NCBI GenBank assembly: GCA_029262065.1
Contig: JAJDAC010000014.1
Coordinates: 62,001 to 126,000 of the forward strand
Direction: 5' to 3'
DNA: 64,000 bases
DNA from: Candidatus Krumholzibacteriota bacterium
GTDB taxonomy: Bacteria > Krumholzibacteriota > Krumholzibacteriia > JAJRXK01
Numbering within the stretch: position 1 is the stretch's first letter; each line of letters starts with the position of its first letter. The position numbers were made by a program, and so were the translations under genes. Below, one piece after another: positions 23,599 through 57,374 of this stretch. The notes under the pieces are model-generated. The model saw only the letters and a program-made list of their open reading frames with translations, had not been told where the DNA came from and did no database searches.

Positions 23599-26500
23599 AT
23601 GCACTACTACGCAGCTCGCCGGCGCCTACTTGCGTGCGGTTTGCTTTTCTTCGCATCTGTTGTTTCCGGCTCCGCCGACGCCGGTGAGTTACGCCCTGTC
23701 GTATCCACCACGTTGGAGCAAAGCGCCGATCGGACCGTGGTCCAGTGGACATGGTCGGAGTCGCTCGACCTGGCCAAGCGCGGGTTGGCCGGCCGGGGTC
23801 CGGAACGCGGCATAGCACCGGCCTACTTCTCGTTGGCCGTGCCGGAGGAACGCGCGCCCGGTGTGCGCGTGCTTCGCATGGCCACGTCGCCGTTGCCCGA
23901 GCTGTCGCTCAAGCAGGCGTTTCCGTCGGCCGATTCCGCCCCCGTCGATGCCATCGAGTTGGGCTCGCTGGTTCGCATGCGCGGTCAGTGGATTGCCCCG
24001 GTGACGATTCAGCCGGCGGTAAGAGTCGGAGACCGTTTGGAACGCGTCCAGGAGCTCGTGATCGAGTTCACGCACCCTGCGCGTAGGTCGATCAGCGTTC
24101 CCGCTACACCGCTTGAAACCCAGCTTGAATCCAAGAACGATGTTCGCGACGACATCTTCCTGAACCCGGCTTTGGCCCGGACCATACGCATCGAGCGTGA
24201 CAACGCGCGACAGGGTCCCGCCACCGTGACCGACGTGTTTGCCCTGAGCGACAATTGGTTGCGGATGGAAGTGACCACGACCGGGCTATACCGCTTGGAC
24301 TACGATCTCCTGATGCAGGTCATGCCCGGTCGTGTCGATACGATTCGGCCCGAGACCTTTCGCGTGTTCGCACCCGGTCGCGCGTTGCAGCCATTGCTGC
24401 CCGAGGATACCGCGGGTAGTTGGAATCCAATGTACCTGCCGGCCGAGCGTGCCATCGAGGTGCAGATCGACGCGACCAATACGGGCAGCTCGTTCCTGGC
24501 CGCCGGTGACGCTTTGTTGTTCTTCGCGGCGGGTCCGGAGGATTGGGCCGATCTGTTTGATCCGTCGGCCGACGCCCGCGAGCACTTCGAGCACGAGTTC
24601 TCTGACAAGCTCGTCTACTGGCTCACCTGGGAAGAAAACCTCGATACGTCCCAGTTCGCGGGCGCGCCGCTGCGGATGGCCCAGCTCGACGTTACGCCCA
24701 CCGGCGCGACCGAGCCCAGTCCTCGCGGCGACTACCGTGAGCGTGTGAACGTGGAAGAGAATTCCACGATGCAGTACGGGGCCACCCTCGACAATTGGCT
24801 CTGGACGCTCAAGATCGATCCCGGTTCCCGCGTGGTATACGAGTTCCTTGTCGATGACCTGGCCCCGGGGGCCGAGTCGCAAACCACGTTGTACAAGTTC
24901 GGGCTTGCCCGTGACCGGACACCGCAGGGCTCACCGTCAACTCCGTCGGTTTTCGAAGAGCTGAGTATCAACGGTACGCTGGCGGAAACGTTCGAGTGGA
25001 ATGTGCGTCGCCAGTTCCAGTACCTGAATGCCCCCGTCGAACTCGAGACGTCGGGCTTCACGCTGGTGGGCGGCACGAATAGCATTGATCTGAAGAACGG
25101 CAGCGCCAACCACTGGTTGGTTACCGACTTCTTCTACGTTTCCTATCGACGCTCCCTGCGCCCGCGCGCCGGTGTCCTGCGTTGGTCGGTCTACGAAGAC
25201 GAGGTGGCCGCCGCGGAAACGCGCTGGTATGGCCTGACCAACCCGGCGATGTGGTCAGCCGGCGCGATCTCGCTCGACATTACCGACTCGCGCAACCCGG
25301 TGCGCCTGGTGGGGGCCGCCCGGGCCAACTCGGACCAGCGGCTCGATATGGATATTCCGTTTGCCGCCGACGCTCGGCGACACTTCTACACGGTGGAGAG
25401 CAGCGCTCTGCTCACGCCCAGTCGTATCTCGTTGTCACGGCCGCGCCGGCTGCGCGAAGAGGTCGCCTCGGGTTCGGGCTACCACATGGTCATCGTGCAT
25501 CCCGACGAAATGACCGGTCCGGCCGAACAGCTGATGGACCACCGCCGTCAGAATCTGGGCGGCATCAGTTCACCGCGCGTAACGGCGACCCGACTGCAGG
25601 ACATCTACGACCAGTTCGGCCACGGCGTGAAAGAGCCGGCGGCGATTCGCAACTACCTGAAGTTCCTGTACACGGTGGACCCCAGTTTCGAATTCCTGCT
25701 GCTCATGGGCGATGCCAGCCGCGACTATCGCAATCGTTTCGAGCGTGACGAGGCCGGGCCCGAGTTCGATCGATGTCCCACCTACATCCAGGTCCAGTAC
25801 CCAGGCGACTACAACACCTTCACCTATGTGCCCTACGCAGCCGACGACTGGTTCGTGGCGTTCGACGACCCCCGGCAACAGATCAGCCTGGCTCGTTTCG
25901 TCGATCTGCCCGAGGCCGCCGTGGGCCGCTTGCCCGTGGGCAATGTGGCCGAGGCCAGCCAGATGGTGCAGCGCATCATCGACTACGACCGGTCCCCCGC
26001 TCCTGGTCCGTGGCGCAACAAAGTGCTCATGGTGGCCGATGATCTCATCGCGGGTCAGCAACGGGGCGAGACCTACCACATCAACGAGGCCGAGTTGCTG
26101 GCTGAGCAGTTGTTGCCGCCGGCGCTCGATGTCGACAAGCTGTACCTCACCGAGTTCGATGCCGTACCCGGCGCCAACGCCAAGCCCAGCGCCCGCCAGG
26201 CCATGCGCGAACGGTGGAGCGCGGGTGCGTTGGTCGTGCACTACATCGGTCACGGCTCGCCGCAGCAGATGGCCGACGAGGCGGTGTTCCGTATCGAAGA
26301 CGTGGCGTCGCTTCGCAACGGCGAGAAACGACCACTTTTCCTGGCGTTCTCGTGCGATGTGGCCATTTTCGACGATCCCAGCAGCAAGAGCATGACCGAG
26401 CAGCTGGTGCTGGCCACCGCGGGCGGAGCCGTGGCGGGGATCGCGGCCACGCAGGTTACCTTCGTGGGGCCCAACGAGAACCTGACCGAGGCATTCTATC

Positions 26501-27735
26501 CGCGTCTGTATCCATCGACCGACCTGGATCGGTCGGTCCCCATTGGCCGTGCCCTGTACCTGGCCAAGGCCAACGTGATCGGCAATACGTCGGCGTTCAA
26601 CCAGCACAACAACCAGCGCTATCACGTTCTGGGTGATCCCGCGATGCAACTGCAATCGCCCAAGAGCAGCTTGACGCTTTCCGGGGATCTGGCCCAGTCG
26701 ATCCAGTCGGGCCGGATTCTGCCGTTGGTGTCGGCGGTGGACGAGGGTGGAGGTGTGCGGACCGAGCTGTCGGGACGTTACTATCTTGAGACGCGCGAAT
26801 CCCTTCGGAACGTGCAGTTCGAGTACTTCATCGATCCCAACCCCGAACCCGGGGATGCGCCGTTCGTGCTGCCGTACCGCTTGGATGGTGGGTCCTTCTT
26901 CACGGGCACGGGCACCTACGAATCGGGCGAGGCCCGGGCCGAGGTATTGGCGCCGGCCTTCATGCGATTTGGCACCGAGGGTCGGGTGCGGGTGCTGCTG
27001 GAATCGGGGACCGAAATGTTCGTGGGATTGGTGGAGCCCATTCCGGTAGAGCGGGTCGATATCACCATCGACGACGACGACGGGCCCAGCATCGAGTTGG
27101 CATTCGTCAACAATGCCCGCCAGGTTACCGCGGGATCTCAACTTACCGCTCGCATCGTTGATCCCAGCGGAGTAAACGTGTTGGCCACGGTACCGGCGAA
27201 CTCCATTCAACTGGAATTCGACGACAACGGATTCGCGACCGACGTGACCCCGTTGTTTCAACTCGATGAAGGGCGCTTTGACCGAGGCGAGATGGCGTAC
27301 GAGCTGCCGGTGGACCTATCACCCGGACCTCACACCATCAAGCTCAGTGCGTCCGACATGCTGAGCAACCTGTCGTCGGCGGAAATTTCCTTCACGGTTA
27401 TCGCCGCGGGCGGGATCGACATCGCGGGCCATTCGGTGTATCCGAACCCGTTCACCAACGACACCCGGATTCTGGTCGAGGTTACCTCGCCCAACACGCC
27501 GGCCGCGGTGCCGGTGGAAGTTGACGTCACGGTGTTCACGACTTCGGGACACCGCGTCAAGCGATTGAGCGGCGCGTTGGACCAGGGTGGCGTAGTCATT
27601 CTGCCCTGGGATGGCCGCGACGACGACGGCGACGAGATTGCGAATGGGACGTACCTTTACACGGTGCGCGCCACGTTTCAGACCCAGCCCCCGCTCACCG
27701 AAACGAGCACGGGGCGAATCGTAAGAATGCGGTAG
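23599..27735 (+). CDS. PorU-like C25-family (gingipain-type) cysteine peptidase, putative T9SS sortase
   Basis: 1,378 residues with a signal peptide (RRRLLACGLLFFASVVSGSADA). A beta-rich N-terminal region of ~620 residues precedes the peptidase C25 domain (about residues 625-1040). The catalytic dyad is visible: HYIGHGS (His885) and AFSCDVAIFD (Cys919). PorU in Bacteroidota removes C-terminal sorting domains of T9SS cargo and links them to the surface. The last ~105 residues (VYPNPFTNDTRILVEV ... NGTYLYTV) form a FlgD-Ig/T9SS-type C-terminal domain. The next gene is PorV-like, PorU's partner, which favours PorU over a secreted gingipain-type enzyme. ATG at 23599 has GAGGA closely upstream. 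Size is similar to PorU; assignment is by motif and context. Confidence 0.82.
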   Translation: MHYYAARRRLLACGLLFFASVVSGSADAGELRPVVSTTLEQSADRTVVQWTWSESLDLAKRGLAGRGPERGIAPAYFSLAVPEERAPGVRVLRMATSPLPELSLKQAFPSADSAPVDAIELGSLVRMRGQWIAPVTIQPAVRVGDRLERVQELVIEFTHPARRSISVPATPLETQLESKNDVRDDIFLNPALARTIRIERDNARQGPATVTDVFALSDNWLRMEVTTTGLYRLDYDLLMQVMPGRVDTIRPETFRVFAPGRALQPLLPEDTAGSWNPMYLPAERAIEVQIDATNTGSSFLAAGDALLFFAAGPEDWADLFDPSADAREHFEHEFSDKLVYWLTWEENLDTSQFAGAPLRMAQLDVTPTGATEPSPRGDYRERVNVEENSTMQYGATLDNWLWTLKIDPGSRVVYEFLVDDLAPGAESQTTLYKFGLARDRTPQGSPSTPSVFEELSINGTLAETFEWNVRRQFQYLNAPVELETSGFTLVGGTNSIDLKNGSANHWLVTDFFYVSYRRSLRPRAGVLRWSVYEDEVAAAETRWYGLTNPAMWSAGAISLDITDSRNPVRLVGAARANSDQRLDMDIPFAADARRHFYTVESSALLTPSRISLSRPRRLREEVASGSGYHMVIVHPDEMTGPAEQLMDHRRQNLGGISSPRVTATRLQDIYDQFGHGVKEPAAIRNYLKFLYTVDPSFEFLLLMGDASRDYRNRFERDEAGPEFDRCPTYIQVQYPGDYNTFTYVPYAADDWFVAFDDPRQQISLARFVDLPEAAVGRLPVGNVAEASQMVQRIIDYDRSPAPGPWRNKVLMVADDLIAGQQRGETYHINEAELLAEQLLPPALDVDKLYLTEFDAVPGANAKPSARQAMRERWSAGALVVHYIGHGSPQQMADEAVFRIEDVASLRNGEKRPLFLAFSCDVAIFDDPSSKSMTEQLVLATAGGAVAGIAATQVTFVGPNENLTEAFYPRLYPSTDLDRSVPIGRALYLAKANVIGNTSAFNQHNNQRYHVLGDPAMQLQSPKSSLTLSGDLAQSIQSGRILPLVSAVDEGGGVRTELSGRYYLETRESLRNVQFEYFIDPNPEPGDAPFVLPYRLDGGSFFTGTGTYESGEARAEVLAPAFMRFGTEGRVRVLLESGTEMFVGLVEPIPVERVDITIDDDDGPSIELAFVNNARQVTAGSQLTARIVDPSGVNVLATVPANSIQLEFDDNGFATDVTPLFQLDEGRFDRGEMAYELPVDLSPGPHTIKLSASDMLSNLSSAEISFTVIAAGGIDIAGHSVYPNPFTNDTRILVEVTSPNTPAAVPVEVDVTVFTTSGHRVKRLSGALDQGGVVILPWDGRDDDGDEIANGTYLYTVRATFQTQPPLTETSTGRIVRMR

Positions 27736-27808
27736 CGATGCCGCCAACCAAGAGTGATTTTCGAGACATTTCGAGAAGCGCCATTCAACCTTCACAGGAG
27801 GCAGAGAA

Positions 27809-28801
27809 ATGAGATTCTTGATTGCGACGGCCCTGATGGTCGCCCTATTGGCGACCGTGGGAGCCGAATCGGCAAAGGCGGTGAGTCAGGCCGGTGGTAT
27901 TTCGCTGCAGTTTCCCATCGGCTCTCGCTACAACGCGCTGGGGGAAGCCGGCACCGCGCTTTCCACCGACCTCAGTTCCATCTGGTGGAACCTGGGTGGA
28001 TTTGCATTTGCCGGTGATGCTGGCAACGACAACGGCATCCATTTCATGTATTCGAAGCTCGCGGCGGGCCTGGCCGACGACGTCAGCCTGAACTGGTTGG
28101 GATACGGTCACTACATTCCGGGCTGGGGCATGGTGGGGGTCACCTTGACCTATCTCGACCAAGGTGAGCAGAACGCCACCGGCGAAGACGGCGAGGATCG
28201 CGGTACGTTCAACGCATATCAGTTTGCGGGTTCGCTGGCCTACGGCGCCAAGTTGGCCAACAACGTGGGCGCGGGTATTTCCGTGAAGTACTTCCGCGAC
28301 GAGTTGGCTCCCGACTCGGTAACCCAGGATCAGGATTCGGGCTCGGGTTCCACGTGGGGCGTCGACATGGGTGTGCACTATCGGCCCGTGAACGTATTGG
28401 CGCTGGGTCTGAGTGTGACCAACATCGGACCCGACATCACGTTCGTGGATGCCGACCAGTCCGACCCTCTGCCCTTCACGCTGAGACTGGGTGCGGCCTG
28501 GGAAGCGTGGCGCACGCCATTGACCTCAGTCACCATCATTACGGACTATCTCATTTCGCTGGTACAGGACGACGAGACCAAGGTGCTCGGAGTGGGCGTG
28601 GAATGGGGCTACGTGGAGAGTCTGTTCGTGCGCGGTGGTCGCAAGGCCGATCCCGAGGGCGACATCGAGGACTGGACCTGGGGATTCGGCGTGGATCTGC
28701 AGCGTTGGACCAAGCAGGCTGTTTCGTTCGACTACGCCAACGTACCGCAGGCGTCTGGCCTGGATTCGGTGGACCGGTTTAGTCTGACGTTCGATTTCTA
28801 G
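27809..28801 (+). CDS. PorV-like (PorV/PorQ family) outer-membrane barrel protein
   Basis: 330 residues with a cleavable signal (LIATALMVALLATVGAESAKA). The mature start SLQFPIGSRYNALGEAGTAL followed by SSIWWNLGGFAF is the signature of the PorV/PorQ/UPF0164 barrel family: the chain reads R-x-x-x-L-G-x-A-x-x-A and then a W-N-P/L-G pattern. The C-terminal strand ends in phenylalanine, as in outer-membrane barrels. PorV shuttles T9SS cargo from the translocon to the PorU attachment complex. AGGAGG precedes the ATG, and porU lies 73 bases upstream. Confidence 0.85.
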   Translation: MRFLIATALMVALLATVGAESAKAVSQAGGISLQFPIGSRYNALGEAGTALSTDLSSIWWNLGGFAFAGDAGNDNGIHFMYSKLAAGLADDVSLNWLGYGHYIPGWGMVGVTLTYLDQGEQNATGEDGEDRGTFNAYQFAGSLAYGAKLANNVGAGISVKYFRDELAPDSVTQDQDSGSGSTWGVDMGVHYRPVNVLALGLSVTNIGPDITFVDADQSDPLPFTLRLGAAWEAWRTPLTSVTIITDYLISLVQDDETKVLGVGVEWGYVESLFVRGGRKADPEGDIEDWTWGFGVDLQRWTKQAVSFDYANVPQASGLDSVDRFSLTFDF

Positions 28802-28843
28802 GCATAGGTCGAATAACCCATCGCCCCGGGAAGAGGTCGAGAA

Positions 28844-31800
28844 ATGCTGAGCAAGGGGTCGCGCCTGTCGTCGCCGTTGCAGCTCGTGTGGTTGGGGTTT
28901 CTCCTGTGGGGGTTGGCGCTCCCTCGAAATGCCCCCGCCGCGGAGCGGGACATACCCGCCGCACAGCGGGAAGTCATGGCGAGCAACGGCGCCGGGCGCA
29001 TGGCGCGCGTGACGGTTGGGTCGAAGAACCTGGGGCCGGACCAGATTGAGCTTCTGGAGCGACGCCGGATTGCCGAGCGGGGCGTTCTGGAAGCGTTGGG
29101 ACCCCATGGCGTTTCGCGCAAGGCACGTGCGCTCATCGAGCAGCGCAAGCGCGACATCGCCAGCGGCAAGATAGGCCCCGCGCAACCTGAGGTGTTGCGG
29201 GTTCTGCTCGTGCGTATCGCCTTTGAAGAGGATCGTTCGGGCTCGCTGACGAGCATTACCGAAGATGGCGACTTCCAGCTCGACCCCGACGAGTCGATTC
29301 TGTTCGATCCGCCACCGCACGACAAGGCCTACTTCGAATCGCATCTGCGAGGTCTGAGTTCCTACTGGGGTAGCATGAGCGACGGTCTGCTGCAGATCGA
29401 CGCCCAGGTGCTGCCCGCCGGCGATACCGACTCCTACAAACTGAGTGACATTGCCGACTACGGTCCGGGCAGTGGCGGATTCTGGGATATCGACGGCCTG
29501 GTGCGGTTGGTACAGGACATGATTGTGGCCACCGACGAAGGTACCCAGGCCGACGGTACGGTCAATCTGGCCGACTTCGATTTCGACGATCCCAACACCT
29601 ACATCATCTTCGCGCACGCGGGCGGCGACCTGCAGAGCAATCTGGTGCGTTCGCCCGGGCAGAGCGGCTATTCGCCCAACGACATCCCCACCTTCTTCGT
29701 GCAACTGGGGGACGAAGACTTCGTGGACCTCACGTCGACCGACACCGACACCGGTGAATTGGGTCGCGTAACCGAGTGCAGTGTGATTCCCGAGACCACT
29801 TCGCAAGACGGATTGAATGGCAGCATCGGGGCGCCGCTGTACCACGAGTTTGGCCATGCATTGGGGCTGCCTGATCTGTACAACACGTTCAATGGTCTGC
29901 CGCAGGTGGGGTATTGGGACATCATGGGCACCGGCACCAACCTGGAAGCCGTGGTCAATTTCGAAAACGACCCCAGGAACTACCTGGTAGTGGGGTTGTT
30001 GCCGCCCAGTACCAGCGTATGGTGCAAGTGGTTCCTGGGTTGGGTGGATCCGGTCGTGGCGGGCGGCCGCATCCAGAAGCGCTCGCTCGTGCCCTCGCAC
30101 CGCCAGGTCACACCCGAGGCCCAGGCGATACTCATAGACGTGAGCCCCGACGAGTTCTATCTGGTGGAGAACCGTTGGATTCCGCCGATCGCCGAGGGCG
30201 TGTTCCTGTACCGCGACCCCGATACACGAACTTCGCAGTACCTGGCGTTGGATGACGGATCGGATCCGCCCACCAACAGCAATCTCTACGACTTCTTCAT
30301 GCCCTGGCCCGGCGGACTCCTGGTGTGGCGGGTGCGGCAGGACATCATCGACGCCACGATCGATGTCAACGTGATCCAGGCGCTGGATACGCCGGGACTG
30401 TCGTTGGTGGAAGCCGACGGCATCCAGGACATCGGTGTGTTCGAGTTCAGTACCGTGGGATTGTTCGGTAGCGACACCGATGCGTTTCGCGACGGATCTT
30501 CGTTCGAGTTCATTCGGGGCGCCAATGACACATTGCGCATCGAGTATCCGACCACCGCCACCGAATTCACCCCCACGTCGCTGCCCAATTCCAACAGCAG
30601 TTTCGGGTTTCACACCGGTGTGCAATTGCTCGAAGTGCCGACGTCCGTCGACGACGAGATGTTCTTTCGCGTGGGCGTGGAAGACGGTGTATTCATCGAT
30701 CTGGGCGACCTGCAGGATCCGTACTTCCCGCTGACGCTGCCGCCGGTGGCCGGTACCGGCGGGGCACTGGTTCCCATTGCCGGTGATGCACAGAGTCTGG
30801 GCTTCTTTCAGTTCGACCGCGGTCCGGCGTTCGTGATGACCGGTCAGGCGTCCGATGCGAGTGGTGCCGTGGGGTTGTACGCTTACAACATGCGCGCGCG
30901 GCCACGCTTTCCCGACCAGCCGCGTATTTCCGACCTTACCGCGCCATTGGTGGGACCTCTGGTGTGGGCGCGTGATTTTTCCGGACAGGATGTGGATGCC
31001 TTGGTGGCCGTGTCGGTCGACGGCAACGTACACGCCTTCACAAGCGAGGGTGTGGTTGGCACGCTGGCCGGCGAAGTGCCTCCGTTTCCGGTGGCCTACT
31101 CGGACTCGGTCGACACCGCGCCCATCGTCATGGATTCGGGAACGCGGCGCTACGTGGTCACGGCCAACGTGTCCGAGGGCCGATTGTTCGTGGTCGGCGA
31201 TGACGGCCTGACCCACGCCGACTGGAGCGACACGTTTCCGGGACCGGTCCGGAGCGGAGCGGTTGCGGCCGACCTGACGGGATCGGGTTCGCCCGACAAG
31301 CTGGCGTTCATCGGCGGCGCGTCGCTGCAGGGAACCGAAGTGTCGGGCCAGACTCTGCCGGGATTCCCCGTGAGCTTACCGTCCACCTTCTTCGTGGATC
31401 CGGGCGACAAGGTGTGGCTGGTGGCGTGGCCGTCACGCGGTACCGTCAATCGACCCGATCGCATTCTCATCGCCAGCGAGAATCAGGATACCGGCCTGGG
31501 GCTGTTGCTGCGGGCCGAACAGGACGCTGACAGCGGTGAGTGGTCGAGCGATTTCTTCGGTCGTGTGCTCTCGACCTTTCCCATCGGTGAACCTGCATTG
31601 GGTGACCTCGATGGCGACGGCGCGCTCGATCTGGTCGTGGCCACGCAGGGCCGCGTCTGGGCCCGCAACGAAACCGGCGTGGACATGACGGGTTGGCCGA
31701 TCGATCTGGCCGAACAGTACCTGTCGGGATACGTGGAAGACGGACCGGGCTCGACGCCGTTGATCGTCGACGTCGATGCCGACGGTCTGAACGAAGTAGT

Positions 31801-32434
31801 GATTCTGAGCCAAGGCGGTCTGCTGTACGCCTTGGAACACGATGGCAAGAATACGCCCGGCTATCCCCGGAAGTTTTCCAGCCCAACGCCGTCGCCCATG
31901 GTAGTCGACGTGGAAACGAGTTCGCGCGACTTCCGTTCGCTGGTGTTGTTCGAGGCGTTGGGCGATACCATACGCGCGGGCAACCGCACCCGTTCGGCGC
32001 GCCTGTCGGCTCTGGACCTGGGCGAAGCGCCCACGTTGGGAGCGGGTCAGCGCCCGGCCGAGTGGTTGATGCGCGGTGGTAACGCGTTTCGTACTGCCCG
32101 CGGCGCGGCGGGGGCCGTGAGTTCATCGACCGGGCCGGCGGTAGCCGTGCAAACGCAGCGCCCGATTCTCTATCCGAATCCCATCCGTTCCGGCGCGGGC
32201 GCGTCGGCTCGCGTGCGGTTCTTCAGCGCTCAGGCGCAGACGGCGCGCCTGACGTTGTTCAATCTCGAGGGCGAGAAGATTCTCGAGAGCGAGCAGTTCA
32301 ATCAGGGTGGGGTGACGGGGGAGGTAGCCTGGGATGCGCGATTTCTGGCACCAGGAGCCTACGTGTGTCGCCTCGACTACATAGGGGAGGCCGGACCGGC
32401 CACCGAAGTGCTGACGGTGTACGTCGAGCGATGA
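28844..32434 (+). CDS. M6-family secreted metalloprotease with FG-GAP-like repeats and T9SS-type C-terminal sorting domain
   Basis: 1,196 residues. N-terminal signal (VWLGFLLWGLALPRNAPAAE). The zinc motif HEFGHALGLPDLYN (His334, Glu335, His338) places it in the M6/immune-inhibitor-A metalloprotease group. The second half has repeats with calcium-like DxDxDG loops (GDLDGDGALDLVVAT; VDVDADGLNEVVIL) as in beta-propeller FG-GAP proteins. The last ~90 residues (ILYPNPIRSGAG ... GAYVCRLDYIGE) match the T9SS type A sorting-domain pattern, also seen at the end of the PorU-like protein. It is the likely cargo of the neighbouring PorU/PorV pair. An ATG start is supported by AGAGG upstream. Confidence 0.85.
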   Translation: MLSKGSRLSSPLQLVWLGFLLWGLALPRNAPAAERDIPAAQREVMASNGAGRMARVTVGSKNLGPDQIELLERRRIAERGVLEALGPHGVSRKARALIEQRKRDIASGKIGPAQPEVLRVLLVRIAFEEDRSGSLTSITEDGDFQLDPDESILFDPPPHDKAYFESHLRGLSSYWGSMSDGLLQIDAQVLPAGDTDSYKLSDIADYGPGSGGFWDIDGLVRLVQDMIVATDEGTQADGTVNLADFDFDDPNTYIIFAHAGGDLQSNLVRSPGQSGYSPNDIPTFFVQLGDEDFVDLTSTDTDTGELGRVTECSVIPETTSQDGLNGSIGAPLYHEFGHALGLPDLYNTFNGLPQVGYWDIMGTGTNLEAVVNFENDPRNYLVVGLLPPSTSVWCKWFLGWVDPVVAGGRIQKRSLVPSHRQVTPEAQAILIDVSPDEFYLVENRWIPPIAEGVFLYRDPDTRTSQYLALDDGSDPPTNSNLYDFFMPWPGGLLVWRVRQDIIDATIDVNVIQALDTPGLSLVEADGIQDIGVFEFSTVGLFGSDTDAFRDGSSFEFIRGANDTLRIEYPTTATEFTPTSLPNSNSSFGFHTGVQLLEVPTSVDDEMFFRVGVEDGVFIDLGDLQDPYFPLTLPPVAGTGGALVPIAGDAQSLGFFQFDRGPAFVMTGQASDASGAVGLYAYNMRARPRFPDQPRISDLTAPLVGPLVWARDFSGQDVDALVAVSVDGNVHAFTSEGVVGTLAGEVPPFPVAYSDSVDTAPIVMDSGTRRYVVTANVSEGRLFVVGDDGLTHADWSDTFPGPVRSGAVAADLTGSGSPDKLAFIGGASLQGTEVSGQTLPGFPVSLPSTFFVDPGDKVWLVAWPSRGTVNRPDRILIASENQDTGLGLLLRAEQDADSGEWSSDFFGRVLSTFPIGEPALGDLDGDGALDLVVATQGRVWARNETGVDMTGWPIDLAEQYLSGYVEDGPGSTPLIVDVDADGLNEVVILSQGGLLYALEHDGKNTPGYPRKFSSPTPSPMVVDVETSSRDFRSLVLFEALGDTIRAGNRTRSARLSALDLGEAPTLGAGQRPAEWLMRGGNAFRTARGAAGAVSSSTGPAVAVQTQRPILYPNPIRSGAGASARVRFFSAQAQTARLTLFNLEGEKILESEQFNQGGVTGEVAWDARFLAPGAYVCRLDYIGEAGPATEVLTVYVER

Positions 32435-32445
32435 GGAGGACTCGA

Positions 32446-33318
32446 GTGAGTAAGATCTGGGTATTCACGTTGATGATGACCGTCGCCGCAAGCCTGGGCA
32501 CGGTCTCGGTCACGGTGGCTGGCCCACTGGGCGAGCAGGAGCGGGGTACGGCTTCCGACCTGCTGGGCGCGCAGGGAGATTGGGCCTACACGGTAGCGCA
32601 AGCGCGATCACAGGACTCGACACCAAGGTCGGTGTCGTTTGCCGAAGATGCGCCGCGTCGTTGGTGGCCGGTGCTCATGTCGCTCGCGGTGCCCGGTCTG
32701 GGCGAAGTAGCGACCGGCCACAAGCGTGGCTACTTCCTGCTGGCCGCCGATGCGGGCAGCATCTACAGCGCGGTCGACAAGAACAACGAAGGAAACGACA
32801 TCGAGGTGGAGTTCGAAGCATTCGCCGACCAGCATTGGGACGAAGACGAGTGGCGTATCGCCCTGAGTGACGGTCTACTCGAGCCCTACTTCCCCGACCT
32901 GGGAACGGGAAGTACGGCGCAGGACGTCCCGTTGTGGGTGACCCGGGAAGAAGACGAACGCGAGTACTACGAGAATCTTGGCAAGTGGGACCAGTTCGCC
33001 TGGGGCTGGCGCGAATACTGGGAAGCGGGTTTTGATCCGGGAGACCCCTCCAATCCCAACTTCATTACGCCGCTGCGTCAGGAGTACCTGAACCTACGCG
33101 GCAAGAGCAACGATGCGTTCAATCGGCGCGATCTGTTCCTGAGTGCTTCGCTGCTCCTACGCGTGTTCAGCGTCTTGGAAATGGCCTACCTGGAAGGTTT
33201 CATTGGCAACCGATTTGGTTCCAACTCGGCTTCATACGAAGACGCGCCCCAGGTCTCGATGTACGTGAGCCCCCTGGTTCAGCGGGAAACCAAAGTAGGA
33301 TTGAAGGTGACGTACTGA
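32446..33318 (+). CDS. uncharacterised envelope protein, DUF5683-like
   Basis: 290 residues with a signal peptide (VFTLMMTVAASLGTVSVTVAG). A central hydrophobic, glycine-rich segment (WPVLMSLAVPGLGEVATGHKRGYFLLAADAG) resembles DUF5683-type membrane proteins; below it is an acidic, charged middle domain. GTG at 32446 has GAGGAGG at five bases; an upstream in-frame start at 32365 would overlap the metalloprotease gene. The next gene encodes a protein with a similar layout, suggesting an old duplication. The stop overlaps the next ATG by one base. Function unknown; context links it to the T9SS/outer-membrane block. Confidence 0.6.
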   Translation: MSKIWVFTLMMTVAASLGTVSVTVAGPLGEQERGTASDLLGAQGDWAYTVAQARSQDSTPRSVSFAEDAPRRWWPVLMSLAVPGLGEVATGHKRGYFLLAADAGSIYSAVDKNNEGNDIEVEFEAFADQHWDEDEWRIALSDGLLEPYFPDLGTGSTAQDVPLWVTREEDEREYYENLGKWDQFAWGWREYWEAGFDPGDPSNPNFITPLRQEYLNLRGKSNDAFNRRDLFLSASLLLRVFSVLEMAYLEGFIGNRFGSNSASYEDAPQVSMYVSPLVQRETKVGLKVTY

Positions 33319-34121
33319 TGAAAACCATCTTTGCGGTCCAATTGACGGTTCTTGCGCTCTTGTCAGTGGTCGCAGCGGGAGACGCAACCGCGCAGTTGGA
33401 TTCGGGTTCCGCCCAGTCTCACATGCAGACTCGGGCACAGTTGGAGGCAGTGTCGCGCGAGGTGGTTTCGTCCAACTTCCAGGACGACCGCGCGCGTCCC
33501 GCCATGAACGCATTTCAGGGCGACAGGCTGAAGCGGGTGGGACACGGAGCCTGGTCGCTGCTGATTCCGGGGTGGAGTCAGTTGAAGTCGGGCCATACGA
33601 ACCGGGCGATAGCCTTTGCCAGTGCCGAGGCGGCAATCTGGACCAGTTACATCGTGTTCAAGGTTCAGGGTCGCAAGCGCCAAGACAGCTACCAGGAGTT
33701 TGCGACGTTGTTCGCGGGCGTCGACGCCGGCGACCGCAACGACGATTACTGGCGTGCGCTCGCGAGTTTCGACAACAGCGAGCAATACAACAACACGGTG
33801 CGCCGCGATGAGCGCGTGGGGATCGAACCCGACGGGCCGCTGTATGTGGGTCCCGATGCCTGGCGCTGGACCAGCGAACGGCGATTCCGTGAATATCGCA
33901 TCTTGCGCGGCGATAGTATCGATGCTTTTGATCGCGCTACATTCGTAACCCTGTTTGCGCTGGTGAACCGCGTGGCCTCGTTCGTGGATGCGGTCCGAAG
34001 TGGTCCGCCCGGTACCGAGAACGCAGCCAATGCGCGCTTGCACGGTCTGGGGCTCGACCTGCAACTCGACCCCGACACCTTCCAGCCAGTGACCAACGTG
34101 ACGCTCAGTCGCACGTTCTGA
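33318..34121 (+). CDS. uncharacterised envelope protein related to its upstream neighbour
   Basis: 267 residues with a signal peptide (QLTVLALLSVVAAGDATAQ). A hydrophobic segment LLIPGWSQLKSGHTNRAIAFASAEAAIWTSYIVF mirrors the 'PGLGEVATGHKRGYFLL' segment of the upstream protein, and both end with a similar repeated 'R...F' barrel-like tail. The order signal, acidic/charged region, PG(x)GQ-type helix is shared. The ATG overlaps the upstream stop (TGATG). I do not recognise a family with a known function; a DUF5683-like envelope protein is the best description. Confidence 0.6.
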   Translation: MKTIFAVQLTVLALLSVVAAGDATAQLDSGSAQSHMQTRAQLEAVSREVVSSNFQDDRARPAMNAFQGDRLKRVGHGAWSLLIPGWSQLKSGHTNRAIAFASAEAAIWTSYIVFKVQGRKRQDSYQEFATLFAGVDAGDRNDDYWRALASFDNSEQYNNTVRRDERVGIEPDGPLYVGPDAWRWTSERRFREYRILRGDSIDAFDRATFVTLFALVNRVASFVDAVRSGPPGTENAANARLHGLGLDLQLDPDTFQPVTNVTLSRTF

Positions 34122-34125
34122 CCCC

Positions 34126-35097
34126 ATGAGTTTCTCTGGCGTGCGAACAACCGCGTGCGGGGCGCTGATTGGCACGGCGCTGGTCCTGTCCGGATGTGCC
34201 CCGGCCCTGCCGACGCCGCGTGGAGTCGCGGCGCTCGACGGAGTGGCTCCGCGCAGCGTGGATTTCGTGTACGCCTACGAAAATCGGCGCAACGAACCGT
34301 ATGCTCCTCTGGTGCGTCCATCGGCGGTTACGGTTCTGCCCGACGGACAGTTCCTGCTGGCGGATTTCGGTGCGGGCCGTCTGCACGTCTTCGACCACGA
34401 GGGTTACTACGACTCCGAGGCCGACGCCGCCGATCTACTACCGCTGGATCTGGGTAGCTACGGCTTTCTGGTGTACGTGCTGGATGCCGGCTCGCGCACG
34501 GTGGTTCGCTTCACCGAGCAAGGCATCTTTCGGGACGTCCTCCTGGATATCGGTAGCCTCGACCCCGGGTCGAACGTTGATCCGTCGGCCATGGCGGTCG
34601 ATCGGGACGGTCGATTGGCCGTGTGCGACATTGCCGGGCACCGTGTTCTTCTGACCGGCCCCTTCCTCAATCTCGAGACGATCGTCGGCGAGTACGGCAG
34701 CTTCAACGGGCAGTTCAACGAACCGCGGGGGGCGGCGTTTGGCAACCGCGGCCATCTGTACGTCAGTGAACGCGGCAACCGACGCGTGCAGGTCTTCGAT
34801 CGGACCGGACAGCCCGTAGCCTCCACCGCCAGCCTGGGCGGAACCAACGATCTGTTCGTGGCGCCGTCGGGCATGGCCACCGATCGCCATGGCAATGTCT
34901 ATGTCACCGACACCGTGGCGGGACAGGTCGTGGTTCTGGCACCGGACCTGTATCCCATCATGGTCGTGGGAGGCGACGATTTCGGACCCGGTAGCTTGCG
35001 CAGTCCGATTGATTGCGCGGTCAGCGACACCAACCAACTGTTCGTGGTGGACGCGGGAGCCCAGGCGTTGCTCGTGTACGACATCGAATTTCCTTGA
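34126..35097 (+). CDS. NHL-repeat (6-bladed propeller) lipoprotein
   Basis: 323 residues. The signal ends in a lipobox LVLSGC (Cys24), so the mature protein is probably lipid-anchored. It is followed by NHL-type propeller repeats: 'PSAVTVLPDGQFLLADFGAGRLHVF' class segments, EPRGAAFGNRGHLYVSERGNRRVQVF and SGMATDRHGNVYVTDTVAGQVVVL (each given only in part here). Such propellers usually bind proteins or polysaccharides. It begins four bases after the preceding gene and its stop overlaps the start of the next, placing it in the envelope operon. Binding partner unknown. Confidence 0.8.
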   Translation: MSFSGVRTTACGALIGTALVLSGCAPALPTPRGVAALDGVAPRSVDFVYAYENRRNEPYAPLVRPSAVTVLPDGQFLLADFGAGRLHVFDHEGYYDSEADAADLLPLDLGSYGFLVYVLDAGSRTVVRFTEQGIFRDVLLDIGSLDPGSNVDPSAMAVDRDGRLAVCDIAGHRVLLTGPFLNLETIVGEYGSFNGQFNEPRGAAFGNRGHLYVSERGNRRVQVFDRTGQPVASTASLGGTNDLFVAPSGMATDRHGNVYVTDTVAGQVVVLAPDLYPIMVVGGDDFGPGSLRSPIDCAVSDTNQLFVVDAGAQALLVYDIEFP

Positions 35098-38000
35098 AGC
35101 CGCGCTTCGGACTGTGGCCCTTGATCCTGGGGGGGCTGATTGCCGCGCAGCCCGCCCAGGGTCAGAGCGATTCCACGCCGAAATCGCCCGGCGAAGCCGT
35201 GACCGAGTCAATCTGGCTGGGACATGAGACCTGGACCGTGCGGGTCGACAGCCTCGCGCTACGCGCGGGCCAGGTGCGCATCCCGCTCACGCATGGTTTC
35301 ATTGCCGAAGTCATTTCCATCCGGCGAGATGGCGTCGAGCTGGTCGCCAATGTGGACGTAACGGTATCGCAGATTCTGGGCTTCCTGGCTCTGGCGGAAC
35401 CTGGACGCGAGGGCGAGAGCCTGGTGGTGCGCTATCGCATCGAACCGGCCGCGGTGATTCCTCGCGTGCAACTTCACGAGCCGATTCGCGCCGGGCCCGC
35501 GGCCGATGACTCCACGACGCGACGGCCGCCCTCACCGTGGGCGGGTCGTGACACCACGCGGGTGGGCTTGCCGCCGCCGGGCGCGTTGCGCATCCAGGGC
35601 AGCAAGAGCGTGTCGGTGCAGGGGGGATCGAACCGTGACGCCACCGTCGATCAGGCGCTTCGACTCACGGTGCAGGGAGAGCTGGCCCCGGGCATCGGGG
35701 TGCGCGCTGAGATCAGCGACGAAAACCTTCCCATCACGCCGCTTGGCAATACCGAAGAGTTGTCCGACCTGGATCAGGTTCGGATCGAGTTGTTTGGACC
35801 ACGCGGCCGCACGGTCCTGGGGGATTTTCGTCTGCGCAGTTCGGTCGGTGCATTCGTGCCCTACGAGCGCAAGCTCCAGGGCCTTTGGTTGCAGGGGAGA
35901 GACGAGCGCGGCAACGTCTCGCTGCTGGGCGGCTCGCCCAAGGGAACCCGGATCGAGGTGGAGATCCGCGGACGCGAGGGCGTGCAGGGACCCTACGAAC
36001 TACTGGACGGTGCGCGGCTGGACCAGAGTTTCATCGTGGCCGGAAGTGAACGCGTATGGGTCGATGGTTCCATCGCCACGCGAGGGGCCGACCGTGACTA
36101 CGTGATCGACTACGTGCGCGGCACCATCACATTCACCGAACGTCGCCCGGTGGGACCGGAAAACCGTCTTGCCGTGGACTTCGAGACCAGTACGACCGGT
36201 TACTCGCGTACGGTGTTTTCGGTGGGGGCTGATTCGTTGTTGGCCGGCCCGGCAACGATCAAGATCGCCTTCCTGCAGGAGGCAGACGACCCCAATCGGC
36301 CCACCGACGGCGAGCTGAGCGTGGCCGACCAGGACACGCTGTCGCTGGCCGGGGACGACCCCACCCGCGCGTTCGGCAACGGCGTAACCCCGACCGAGCC
36401 GGGCGAGGGTCAGTACGTCGAGCGATTCACCGTCGACGATGTGCGATTCTTCGAGGTTGCGGATAGCACCGGTGGCGACTTCAACGTTTCGTTCGTGCGT
36501 GTGTCGGCGGGCGAGGGAGACTACAGCCTGGACCGGGTGGGGCAGGAAGGGCGGCTGGAGTTCACGTTCGTGGGAGCCACGCTGGGCGACTACCGCATTG
36601 GTCGACAACTCGTTTTGCCCCGGCGCACGCAGACGGCCGTGGCGCGCGTGCAGATGGGTGAACGGGGCCACTCCATGTGGTTGCGGGCCGAAGGAAATCT
36701 CAGTCGTCACGACGCGAATCAGTTGAGTGATCTGGACAGCGCCGACGATGACGACGCCGCCTGGCGCGCCCAGGCCGAAACCCCCTGGCTGGGCCCGGGG
36801 TCGAATCCAGAGCTGGGGCGGGGTTTGCGCTTGGGAGTGGTGGCCGAGGCCATCGGCGGCAATTTCGAGGCTCTGGGCCGTATCCGTGAACCATTCTTCT
36901 ACGAGCGCTGGAACCTGCAATCAGAAGCCCGCGATACCCGCGAGAGTCGCGAGGAGGTGAAGGCCGAATTCGTATCCGAGCGTCGCCAGACCACGGCCAC
37001 GTTCGAGCATCTGCGCCGGAGCGGGCAGTACGACGGCAAGCGTGGGACCTGGCGGGGAAGCGGTCGCATCGTCGATCGCCTGGGTTGGAATCATCGACTG
37101 GCGCTCACCGAAGCCGACCGCGGCCAGGCGCAACGCAACGATCGCCGCGACCGCCAGGTGACCGTTCGCTGGGAAGATCCCCGTTTGGGGCCGTTCCTCA
37201 CCTGGGACGACGAGAGATTCCGCGATCGGCGCCAATCGGGTGAGCAAGGCTACCGCGCGGGCGCGTGGACGGCGGGCGTGCAGCGTAGTCGTCCACGGTT
37301 TTCCGGGCAGCTACAGTTCCGACGCGAGATCGCCGACAGCTTGGTGACCGGAGATGAATGGAAGTTCGCGCGTGACATTCGCCAGTGGCGCGGCTCCAGT
37401 TCGGCGACCGTGGGAACGTTCGCGCTGGAGGCCGATGTGAATTGGCGACGGGCCATATCCGGAGGGGCGGGCGACGAGAGGACGCGCCTGGGGCGCATTC
37501 GGCTGGCACGACGTTCGTTGGGTCAGGGGCTCGGGGTTGATCTGGACTACCGGGCGGGTACCGAAGAAGCCCGCGTATTGGGACGCGAGATCGTATTCGT
37601 GGGCCTGGGCGAAGGTGACTTCGACATCGAAGGCAAACCCGTGGGGGTGCGGCAGGGCGACTACAACGTCATCTTCACCCCAAGCGACAGTCTCGTGGCG
37701 TCCATCAACGTGGAGGCCACGGCCAAGGTCGGCTGGACCTCGTCGCCTGGTTTTCTGGGTGGAGTGGCCACTGAGGGCCTGGTGCAGGTTCGCGAACGCA
37801 GCCGTTCCGACGATGCCGGCGCGGTTCTGCGACTGTCGCCGGGCGAGCTGCGCAATCCGGCCACGACGATTTTTGGCGAACGCAGGTTGCGAGAGGAACT
37901 GGTGTTGCTGCGTGGGCTCAGTCGATTCGATCTGCGTCTGACCTACGATCGACTGGACGTGCTGGATCAGCAGTTTCGCGAGGGCCCCGAGACCTCCAAG

Positions 38001-38515
38001 CGCGACCAACGCAGGGTTCGCCTGGAAACCGTGCTCACGCGGGGATTCAGTCTGAGGCTCGAGGCGGCACGCGAGTTCCGCACGCGCGATGGCGTAGCGT
38101 CGAACAACCCATTGCTACAGAGTTTCCGCGTGGAAGATCAGACGGCCGACGCCACGCTTCGGTATCGGCCCACCGCGCGCTCGCGTCTTGCATTGCAGGT
38201 GCGCTGGACCGATCGCGTGGAAGAAGTGGGAGGCATAGATCAGCGCGTGGCCGAGCTGATTCCCTCGGTGACGTCAGACTTCTTGCGCGGGCGCTGGACC
38301 GTGGAGACGCGCCTGGTCGATGTGAACGAGACGAAACCGGCCGCATCGGTACGACCGTTTTTCTTTGAACGGCCCGGAACCGGACGTGGTGCTTTGGTGT
38401 CGGCGCAGTGGGGTGTGGGGGGCAGCGTCACCGTCACCGCCCGGTATCAGCTGCGTGACGAGCCCGAGCGCGACGTTCGTCAGAACCTATCGTTGGAAAC
38501 AAGGGCGAGATTCTG

Positions 38516-38516
<1 letters not shown>
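35094..38516 (+). CDS. very large outer-membrane barrel-like protein of the FCB surface-protein type
   Basis: 1,140 residues. It begins with a short signal (LWPLILGGLIAAQPAQGQ). An N-terminal domain has the pattern IQGSKSVSVQGGSNRDAT, then ENLPITPLGNTEELSDLDQV, VLGDFRL and GSPKGTRIEVEIRGREGVQG, followed by 'WVDGSIATRGADRDYVIDYVRGTITFTERRP' (quoted in pieces). Similar motifs occur in large, unnamed surface proteins of Ignavibacteria and other FCB bacteria. The second half is rich in alternating charged/aromatic residues ending in a phenylalanine (SLETRARF), as in barrels. It resembles SprA, the giant T9SS translocon, only in size class, so I do not assign it. TTG at 35094 overlaps the previous stop (TTGA). 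Confidence 0.6.
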
Positions 38517-45055
<6,539 letters not shown>

Positions 45056-51359: not shown

Positions 51360-51500
51360 ACCGACTACGCCTCGTGATGTCTCTTCATGGAACGGCACCG
51401 CTTGCGTTCTGCGGCAGAGACTGCACTCGATGCTCCCTTCCGGCGCTCGCGACCCGTGCCCCCAATGGGCCCATGCTCTCCATGCGATCAGGGGAACGCC

Positions 51501-53180
51501 TTGAAGGACAAGATTGCTGGCAAACTTCTGGAAGCGAACCTGGTAAGTCAGGATCAGCTGCAGAAGGCGCTCGAACTGCAGAAAAACACCGGCGGCACCA
51601 TCGGTCACAACCTGATGAAGACCGGTGCGATTTCTGACAAGGCCTACGCCGAGTTCCTCGGCAAGATGTATAGCCTCCCGACGGTCATACTGGGCGAGAT
51701 GGACGTCGACCCCGAGACGGCGGCGCTGATTCCCGAAGACGTAGCCACCCGGTTTCAGGTAGTCCCGCTCAAGCGTCAGGGCCGCGTTCTGACCGTGGCC
51801 ATGTCCAACCCGTCGAACATCTTCGCGATCGACGACATCAAATTCATTACCGGCATGGAAGTCCAGCCAGTCGTCTGCACCGAAGGCGATATCAAAGCGG
51901 CGATCGACAAGTACTACGACTCGGCCGATAGCCTCAAAGAGGTGCTCGAAAACCTCGGTGATGACATCGAGGTCGTCGAGGAAGAGGAAGAGGAAGACGA
52001 GCAGCGTCTCTCGGCCGAGAGCCAGAACGCGCCCGTGGTCAAGCTGGTCAACTCGCTCCTGGTGGACGCAGTCAAACGCGGCGCCAGTGATATCCACATC
52101 GAGTGCTACGAGAAGGTCATGCGGGTGCGTTACCGCATCGACGGTGTGCTTCAGGAAATGATGAATCCGCCGTTCAAGATGAAGTCGGCCATTACCTCGC
52201 GCCTGAAGATCATGGCCGAACTCGACATCGCCGAGCGACGCATTCCTCAGGATGGCCGCATCAAGATCAAGGTAGGCGAGAAGAAGATCGACCTACGTGT
52301 ATCGACGCTGCCATGCATCTACGGCGAAAAAGTCGTAATGCGTATCCTGGACAAGTCGAACCTGAAGCTCGACCTCGACGACTTCCACATGGAACCCACG
52401 GCCATGGCTCATATCACCAAGGCCATCGCTTCTCCGTTCGGAATGGTACTGGTCACCGGACCCACCGGTTCTGGTAAGACGACCACCCTGTACTCGTGCC
52501 TGAACCGTGTGAACGTTCCCGGTATCAACATCATGACCGCCGAGGATCCCGTCGAGTACAACCTGGACGGCATCAACCAGGTGCAGGTGAAGGATGAAGT
52601 GGGTCTCACGTTCGCCGCGGCCCTGAAAGCGTTCCTGCGTCAGGATCCCAACATCGTCATGGTTGGTGAGATTCGAGATCTCGAGACCGGTTCAATCGCC
52701 ACCAAGGCTGCGCTCACTGGACATCTCGTGTTGTCCACCCTGCATACCAACGACGCCCCCTCAACCATCAATCGTATGGTCGACATGGGTCTCGAACCGT
52801 TTCTGGTGGCCACTTCGACCAATCTCATCGCCGCCCAGCGTCTGGTGCGGCGTATCTGCGTCAACTGCAAGGAGCCCGTGGAGGTCACGGCCGAGACGCG
52901 CGCCGAGTTGGGTATCAAGCCCGACGCCGTCATCTACGAGGGCGCCGGTTGCGAAGATTGCAGCGGCACCGGATATCGAGGGCGACAGGGTCTGTACGAG
53001 GTTTTGCCAATTACCTCGGGCATCCGCGAACTCATCATTGATCGCGCAAGTACCACCGAGATCCGCGACGGAGGCATTGCCGAGGGCATGTTGACGCTGC
53101 GCATGGACGGTATTCGCCAGCTGGAAAAGGGCGTCACCACGATCGAAGAGGTCCTACGCGAGACCTCCGACCAGAACTGA
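51501..53180 (+). CDS. pilB: type IV pilus assembly ATPase PilB
   Basis: Powers pilus extension from the inner membrane. 559 residues. N-terminal MSHN/GSPII_E-type domain (LVSQDQLQKALELQKNTGG, SLPTVILGEMDVDP), an acidic hinge (VVEEEEEEDEQ), then the ATPase: Walker A GPTGSGKTTT (Lys326), Walker B (NIVMVGEIRDLETG), His box (STLHTNDAPSTINR). A zinc tetracysteine motif is present (ICVNCKEP ... CEDCSGTGYRGRQG). TTG at 51501 has AGGGGA just upstream; an earlier in-frame start at 51387 gives an unrelated N-terminus. First gene of a pilB-T-C-S-R-A cluster. Confidence 0.95.
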   Translation: MKDKIAGKLLEANLVSQDQLQKALELQKNTGGTIGHNLMKTGAISDKAYAEFLGKMYSLPTVILGEMDVDPETAALIPEDVATRFQVVPLKRQGRVLTVAMSNPSNIFAIDDIKFITGMEVQPVVCTEGDIKAAIDKYYDSADSLKEVLENLGDDIEVVEEEEEEDEQRLSAESQNAPVVKLVNSLLVDAVKRGASDIHIECYEKVMRVRYRIDGVLQEMMNPPFKMKSAITSRLKIMAELDIAERRIPQDGRIKIKVGEKKIDLRVSTLPCIYGEKVVMRILDKSNLKLDLDDFHMEPTAMAHITKAIASPFGMVLVTGPTGSGKTTTLYSCLNRVNVPGINIMTAEDPVEYNLDGINQVQVKDEVGLTFAAALKAFLRQDPNIVMVGEIRDLETGSIATKAALTGHLVLSTLHTNDAPSTINRMVDMGLEPFLVATSTNLIAAQRLVRRICVNCKEPVEVTAETRAELGIKPDAVIYEGAGCEDCSGTGYRGRQGLYEVLPITSGIRELIIDRASTTEIRDGGIAEGMLTLRMDGIRQLEKGVTTIEEVLRETSDQN

Positions 53181-53193
53181 AGAAAGGACGACC

Positions 53194-54264
53194 ATGGCCA
53201 GCCTGCGAGAGCTGCTAGAGGAAATGATGAAGCGGGATGCGAGCGACCTGCATCTGACGGCCGGCTTACCACCCCAGTACCGGGTCGATGGCGATATCGT
53301 GAGCTCCAGCTTCGAGGTGCTCACCGCCGACGACACCCGCGCGCTGGCGTACTCGGTTCTGAACGACGAACAGAAAAAGTCGTTCGAGAACAACCGGGAG
53401 CTGGATCTCTCATTCGGTGTGCAGGGCATGAGCCGCTTTCGCGCGAATTGTTTCGTGCAACGCGGCGTCACCAGCATGGCCATTCGTAAGATCCCGTACG
53501 AAATCCTCTCGTTTGATCAACTCGGTCTTCCCAAAGCCGTCAAGAAGTTCGCCGAACTACACCGGGGCATGCTGTTGGTGACCGGACCCACGGGCTCGGG
53601 TAAATCGACCACGCTGGCCAGCATCGTCGACTACATCAACTCGAAGCGTCCGGGTCATATTCTGACGATTGAAGATCCCATTGAGTACGTTCATCACCAC
53701 AAGAGATGTGTCATCAATCAACGTGAAGTTGGTGCGGACACCGACAGTTTCGGCAAGGCTCTGAAGTATGTTCTACGTCAGGATCCTGACGTGATCCTGG
53801 TGGGTGAAATGCGCGATCGCGAGACCATCCAGGCCGCGATCACGATCGCCGAGACCGGGCATCTGTGCCTGGCCACTTTGCATACCAACAGCACGTACGA
53901 GTCCGTCAATCGCATCATCGATGTATTTCCCGCGAACCAGCAGCCGCAGGTGCGGGCGCAGCTCGCGTTTGTGCTCGAAGGCGTGGTTACGCAGCAGTTG
54001 ATTCCAAGAATGAAGGGCAAGGGTCGTGAGCTGACGGCTGAAGTCATGGTCTGCACGCCGGCAATCAAGGCGTTGATTCGTGACGACAAGGTGCATCAGG
54101 TCTACGGCATCATGCAGGCCGGACAGAAGTACGGCATGCAGACGATGAATCAGGGTCTCTACCAGGGTTACGTGAACCGCAAGATCTCCTATGAGGAGGC
54201 GATGGGTCGCAGCCCCGATAAAGATGAGCTTCTCAAGATGATTGGCGACACCGTTCCCGTGTGA
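53194..54264 (+). CDS. pilT: type IV pilus retraction ATPase PilT
   Basis: Drives pilus retraction and twitching motility. 356 residues, typical. Walker A TGPTGSGKSTTLAS (Lys137), Asp box IEDPIEYVHHHK, Walker B DVILVGEMRD, His box TLHTNSTYESVNRIID, and the PilT-specific C-terminal region with a 'DDKVHQVYGIMQAGQKYGMQTMN' stretch quoted only in part here. The N-terminus MASLRELLEEMMKRDASDLHLT is classical. AAGGA precedes the ATG, 13 bases after pilB. Confidence 0.96.
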   Translation: MASLRELLEEMMKRDASDLHLTAGLPPQYRVDGDIVSSSFEVLTADDTRALAYSVLNDEQKKSFENNRELDLSFGVQGMSRFRANCFVQRGVTSMAIRKIPYEILSFDQLGLPKAVKKFAELHRGMLLVTGPTGSGKSTTLASIVDYINSKRPGHILTIEDPIEYVHHHKRCVINQREVGADTDSFGKALKYVLRQDPDVILVGEMRDRETIQAAITIAETGHLCLATLHTNSTYESVNRIIDVFPANQQPQVRAQLAFVLEGVVTQQLIPRMKGKGRELTAEVMVCTPAIKALIRDDKVHQVYGIMQAGQKYGMQTMNQGLYQGYVNRKISYEEAMGRSPDKDELLKMIGDTVPV

Positions 54265-54293
54265 ATCGGACGGGAATCTAAGGAGGTTCGAAG

Positions 54294-55511: not shown

Positions 55512-55524
55512 CGCGTTTTTCTGG

Positions 55525-55550
55525 GGCCCCTTCCCGAATACGAAGGGGCC
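55525..55550 (+). other. 9-bp stem-loop between pilC and pilS
   Basis: GGCCCCTTC (55525-55533) and GAAGGGGCC (55542-55550) flank an 8-base loop. No T-run follows, so it may limit read-through or stabilise the pilC message end rather than terminate fully. Confidence 0.5.
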
Positions 55551-55584
55551 TCTGCCTTGAAAGTTCAGTCCTGGGGGGACTACC

Positions 55585-57321: not shown

Positions 57322-57374
57322 GGCTGACGTTTTTTTGTTCCGGGCGGAGAAATCCGTTGGAAAGGATCGACTCG

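Follow-up and report, generated by a model that had tools for sequence, protein, structure and literature searches.

A type IX-like secretion locus in Candidatus Krumholzibacteriota, with no recognisable PorK/L/M/N energy chain

A conserved operon found in Candidatus Krumholzibacteriota, a phylum other than Bacteroidota, probably codes for the components that carry and mature the cargo of a type IX-like export system, one that extends across the phylum and whose energy chain is not recognisable. At the level of sequence, the parts of this system, their conservation, the proteins that bear its tag and the absence of detectable motor parts can all be read from the genomes. By homology, a cargo path, a cleavage step carried out by PorU and an energy source can also be proposed. 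Cargo proteins that have both a Sec signal and an Ig-like signal at the C-terminus would be delivered to the periplasm and would then leave it by way of SprA, a giant barrel in the outer membrane. A carrier barrel of the PorV family would withdraw the cargo from SprA, and the PorU peptidase would process it at the surface. Accessory parts would come from the same operon: the M6 protease, the NHL propeller, the g7 barrel and the Omp85 protein. Since the PorK/L/M/N chain is unrecognisable, some other drive would have to eject the carrier with its cargo from SprA, and the best candidate may be an ExbB-ExbD-TonB motor whose genes lie next to those of PorV-family carriers.

The PorU operon

The window, a stretch of 64,000 nucleotides, contains three adjacent genes, all on the + strand, whose order and coordinates were given correctly in the original prediction. 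These encode a PorU-type C25 peptidase (23599..27735, 1378 aa), a PorV-type outer-membrane barrel (27809..28801, 330 aa) and an M6-type metalloprotease with a C-terminal Ig-like domain (28844..32434, 1196 aa). The peptidase has a signal peptide, a C25 domain at residues 630-1018 and an Ig-like C-terminal domain at residues 1280-1378. It scores 489.7 bits with NF033707 (T9SS sortase PorU), above the cut-off of 420, and 265.8 bits with PF01364. The sole PDB relative obtained in a sequence search is 6za2, 'Por secretion system protein PorU'. The catalytic pair, His885 and Cys919, had been predicted to be intact; the positions are right, and both residues are invariant in the 19 sequences of the phylum PorU set.

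The barrel passes the cut-off of 90 for the PorV/PorQ family (NF033709) with 172.5 bits. It is closer to PorV (115.5 bits, equivalog cut-off 250) than to PorQ (55 bits), with both equivalog cut-offs missed. When a profile of the PorV orthologs was compared with the PDB, a single match was obtained, the PorV of the SprA complex (E 1.5e-40). The AlphaFold model of the barrel (pLDDT 87.4) has the PorV chains 8gl6_F and 6h3i_F as its top two Foldseek matches, with FadL behind.

The M6 protein scores 30.7 bits with Peptidase_M6 (cut-off 22) and has an intact HEFGH motif. HExxH is retained in 16 of 16 full-length M6 sequences of the phylum, which makes the protein a poor fit to NF052323, a family described as a T9SS-dependent M6-like inactivated metalloprotease; its score with that model is 208 bits against a cut-off of 600, and the assignment was rejected. 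The original prediction had taken the three products as attachment-complex proteins and cargo. For the M6 protease a role beyond that of ordinary cargo is probable, since its gene is kept in the PorU-PorV operon of 16 of 18 other genomes.

The operon continues downstream on the + strand. A small protein without a family match, g4 (32365..33318), has an uncertain start codon and a frame that overlaps the M6 gene; it is followed by a second small protein, g5 (33318..34121), which resembles g4 by eye. Family-model searches with g4 and g5 gave no significant match. Next is an NHL beta-propeller protein with a lipoprotein-like N-terminus (34126..35097; 73.6 bits with PF01436), then g7, a large outer-membrane barrel of ~1130-1200 aa (35013..38516, start codon uncertain). 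The final conserved member encodes an Omp85/POTRA protein of 569 aa (38516..40225) that is over the cut-off for both PF07244 and PF01103.

The nature of g7 can be narrowed to some extent. At 1167 residues, it contains two copies of a module of 66-74 residues that is common to SprA. In hhalign comparisons with SprA of the phylum, one copy was matched with 95% probability (E 2.6e-8) and the second with 87%. The AlphaFold model (pLDDT 74.5) consists for the most part of long beta strands, and its top Foldseek matches are SprA and TonB-dependent receptors, with low TM throughout. Classification of g7 as a short SprA paralog was rejected, as the fold also matches TonB-dependent receptors and every TM is low; on the model, it is a predicted large barrel with no narrower class assigned.

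Across families of the phylum the order DnaE-AccA-PorU-PorV-M6-g4-g5-NHL-g7-Omp85 is conserved. PorU and PorV were found in 18 of 18 other genomes, g4, g5 and g7 at their positions in 16 (as for M6), Omp85 in 15 and NHL in 14, with some of the regions interrupted by contig ends. This conservation argues that the adjacency of PorU, PorV and M6 is not due to chance. PorU occurs in all 19 sampled genomes. Its scores are 393-580 bits in the phylum versus ~1200 in Saprospiraceae; for PorV the values are ~172-224 versus 379-398. Each genome has 9-17 PorV-family matches, compared with 5 in the Bacteroidota controls. Such matches, like those to TPR proteins, are too unspecific to assign PorT/SprT, PorW/SprE, PorP, PorG, PorQ or PorZ.

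SprA and the tagged proteins

The translocon is encoded on another contig (C32). SprA is present there as one open frame of 2342-2354 aa with a score of 507.7-523 bits (cut-off 200), and its only meaningful PDB relative is the SprA of F. johnsoniae. Contamination was considered and rejected: the GC content of the contig is 62.3%, compared with 62.7% in the window, and synteny at the locus extends to relatives. SprA was matched in all 58 sampled genomes of the class, in 55 of them over the cut-off. The gene adjoins LptF/G-like genes, followed in most relatives by rimP-nusA-infB. SprA is followed by a gene of the M28 family in which a glutaminyl-cyclase-like motif was recognised by eye (G000:C32:27704-28648; L023:7704-8648, where G000 is the genome of the window). 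A gene of this family occurs in the SprA regions of 16 of 18 relatives, mostly adjacent to SprA. In Bacteroidota, cyclisation of N-terminal glutamine is a known trait and is found together with type IX secretion (PMC5837995).

Proteins that carry the C-terminal signal are abundant. A search of the window's own genome with TIGR04183 gave at least 150 matches over the cut-off (150 scored from 265 candidates). Sixteen of these proteins were sampled from different genome locations; in all 16, only 2-6 residues separate the end of the match from the stop codon, and a simple hydrophobicity test indicates a signal-peptide-like N-terminus. Within the window itself, the C-terminal domains of the peptidase and the M6 protein had been predicted to be sorting domains. 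With TIGR04183 (cut-off 23) they score 21.1 and 14.4 bits, respectively, both below the cut-off; the PorU domain does pass Pfam FlgD_ig, with 33.4 bits against 27. As the window domains fall short singly, it is the remainder of the genome that argues for the signal. Large sets of such proteins have been observed elsewhere: in Kryptonia, 811 proteins bear the signal (PMC4737851).

With PorU, PorV, SprA and this set of signal proteins, the prediction of a type IX signature outside Bacteroidota is borne out, and a lineage at or near the FCB group is plausible. Further C25 frames related to PorU occur in the same genome (G000:C17:101574-103508 and G000:C21:70861-77052; 1424-1751 aa), below the PorU cut-off. 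PorU-like frames were also seen in contigs labelled Chloroflexota (L013, Anaerolineaceae UBA5311) and Planctomycetota (L014, CSMAG_2201), the result of either mis-binning or a wider spread.

The energy chain and its possible substitutes

The inner part of the machine presents a different picture. Motor parts were sought through profile searches. In 80 genomes of the phylum, with one class for all, PorM/GldM was found in none and PorL/GldL in none over the cut-off. PorN/GldN was found in none of six phylum genomes. No GldK ortholog was found in seven genomes, where the best scores were 30 bits in the window's own genome and at most 100 in the other six, against a cut-off of 350; scores of this size are typical of the broad formylglycine-enzyme fold. 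The same models do match Bacteroidota controls. In two Saprospiraceae genomes GldL scores 101 and 94 bits, GldN 178 and 173, and GldK 539-547, and the GldM model gives 249 bits on a single protein of G012, a Saprospiraceae genome (cut-off 180). Thus, of the homologues that the original prediction had proposed to look for, SprA was found and PorK/GldK, PorL, PorM and PorN were not detected. That prediction was to fall if SprA, PorL/PorM and other tagged proteins were all missing; SprA and the signal proteins are present, but PorL/PorM homologues were not detected, and the picture of a machine like that of Bacteroidota is not supported. The PorK-L-M-N chain is here treated as absent or replaced. 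What is absent is detectable homologs; GldL and other short membrane proteins could be too diverged for the models to recognise. On a membership test the name of a complete type IX system is not warranted: what is seen is an outer-membrane module with no recognisable motor, which would resemble the known machine in its working as far as the energy-requiring step.

It is possible, though less likely than not, that the system is complete and conventional, with PorK/L/M/N present and too diverged for the family models. GldL is short, with only two helices in the membrane, and GldM is built of Ig-like domains in series; both may evolve fast. Three weak GldL matches within the phylum and the generic matches of formylglycine-enzyme-fold proteins to GldK would also fit. 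However, the GldL matches cover profile positions 100-235, lie in frames of 548-894 aa and miss the membrane helices, and they were set aside as chance. PorU and PorV keep about a third to half of their Bacteroidota bits, so motor parts that diverged likewise would remain obvious. A proportional fall predicts ~200 bits for GldK, ~90 for GldM, ~65 for GldN and ~35 for GldL; these values would lie far above the detection level, and none was seen.

An explanation of similar standing, also tentative, is that an ExbB-ExbD-ExbD-TonB motor powers export. Six genomes of the class and two Bacteroidota controls were surveyed for MotA/ExbB-family genes, and two conserved gene clusters stand out. The first (contig C12, L176; G000:C12:50001-64000), whose core is present in six of six genomes, encodes a PorV/PorQ-family barrel, a signal-bearing protein of ~900 residues, a GWxTD protein, ExbB, two ExbD, TonB and TolC. 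It also includes a barrel like those of TonB-dependent receptors. The second (contig C14, L178; G000:C14:27001-40000) lies ~50 kb upstream of the PorU operon and was found in five of six genomes. It encodes a signal-bearing protein, a PorV-family barrel, a TPR protein of ~1000 residues, ExbB, two ExbD and TonB. The TPR protein could bridge motor and translocon in the manner of PorW.

Pairs of PorV-family and ExbB genes at most 7 kb apart number 11 in the six genomes versus 1.17 expected, and none occurs in the two Bacteroidota controls; as the genomes are related, the 11 pairs represent two conserved linkages and not 11 independent events. In the near-complete genome G017 (2.6 Mb, 97% complete) there are two MotA/ExbB-family genes only, one in cluster 1 and one TolQ-like. 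The linkage, the conservation of the clusters and the retention of cluster 1 in G017 all argue for this drive, as does the 5:2 architecture that such motors share with PorL/PorM (PMC11205867). On the other hand, cluster 1 may serve nutrient uptake, a role made possible by the receptor-like barrel within it, and cluster 2 is missing in G017. Neither cluster adjoins SprA or PorU, and their PorV-family members score nearer PorQ than PorV. No better candidates for a replacement drive emerged than these two operons, which have a modest chance of filling that role. The broader form of the proposal, in which the type IX translocon throughout the phylum would be powered by ExbB-ExbD-TonB, partly via the long TPR protein, and coupled to PorV-family carriers in place of PorL/PorM and PorK/PorN, is slightly more doubtful still.

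Retention of SprA, PorU and PorV for outer-membrane assembly or surface maturation, with C-terminal domains that are not export signals, would accommodate the Omp85 protein in the PorU operon, the LptF/G-like genes beside SprA and the C-terminal Ig-like domains found without the system elsewhere (TIGR04183 also has matches in Deinobacterium, and Poribacteria have the domain with no Por structural genes, PMC3909097), but it is improbable given that a full-length SprA, a catalytically intact PorU, PorV and more than 100 strictly C-terminal signals on exported-looking proteins co-occur, and that proteomics of Fibrobacter succinogenes suggested cleavage of such domains (PMC6851124).

The window also contains the type IV-A pilus genes pilB, pilT and pilC, with genes for a sensor kinase and a sigma-54 response regulator after them (51387-58799). 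The original prediction had noted a pilus cluster in the same window as the secretion genes; PilB, PilT and PilC are indeed encoded at 51387-55511, but no link to the type IX system was found. Pilus genes were rejected as an energy source, as their only connection is that they share the window.

Comparison with known systems

The type IX-like export system proposed here has much in common with the systems of P. gingivalis and F. johnsoniae. As in those Bacteroidota, there is a SprA/Sov translocon, a PorV carrier, a PorU C25 peptidase with its own C-terminal domain and a large set of Sec-exported proteins whose C-terminal signal is type A-like. The porU and porV genes are adjacent, as they are in the Saprospiraceae control G012. 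In contrast to Bacteroidota, PorK/GldK, PorL/GldL, PorM/GldM and PorN/GldN go undetected, the PorU operon adds the conserved M6, g4, g5, NHL, g7 and Omp85 genes, and PorV-family matches are more numerous per genome.

Type IX systems were placed in Bacteroidota only by a 2016 survey (PMC4793230), and a 2023 review confined both system and signals to that phylum (PMC10202324). SprA has also been termed FCB-specific (PMC12611786). Its occurrence outside Bacteroidota is already known in outline for FCB phyla: SprA, C-terminal signals or both are found in Fibrobacter, Kryptonia, Gemmatimonadota and Cloacimonadota, as they are here. The new point is the missing inner motor beside an outer-membrane half and more than 100 tagged proteins. 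No report of a translocon without a motor was found in the literature within reach of the search, which left subscription papers and preprints outside, nor one that tested the energy chain over a whole phylum and found it missing.

The candidate operons, like the ExbB-ExbD-TonB, TolQ-TolR-TolA and Myxococcus AglRQS motors, encode one ExbB-type and two ExbD-type subunits with a TonB-type coupler. Unlike the genes of those motors, they also include PorV-family carriers and signal-bearing proteins, and their role in export is putative. F. succinogenes, which is outside Bacteroidota, likewise has an ExbB-ExbD-ExbD-TonB operon, and there it is raised on cellulose (PMC6851124).

In Bacteroidota, a 2025 paper assigned the energy demand to the step in which carrier and cargo are ejected from SprA, with the GldL/GldM motor feeding this step via GldK/GldN, and type IX secretion was proposed to have begun as part of a gliding machine (PMC12635249). 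It is this placement of the energy demand, and the derivation from gliding, that make absence of the motor informative. A phylum that has SprA, PorU, PorV and tagged proteins but no such chain would either use another power source or have an outer-membrane module that stands alone, and either outcome makes the origin and energetics of type IX secretion testable. Detection rules that require PorK-N would miss such systems. If the drive does prove to be ExbB-ExbD-TonB, the outer-membrane module would be separable from the gliding motor, and possibly older than it.
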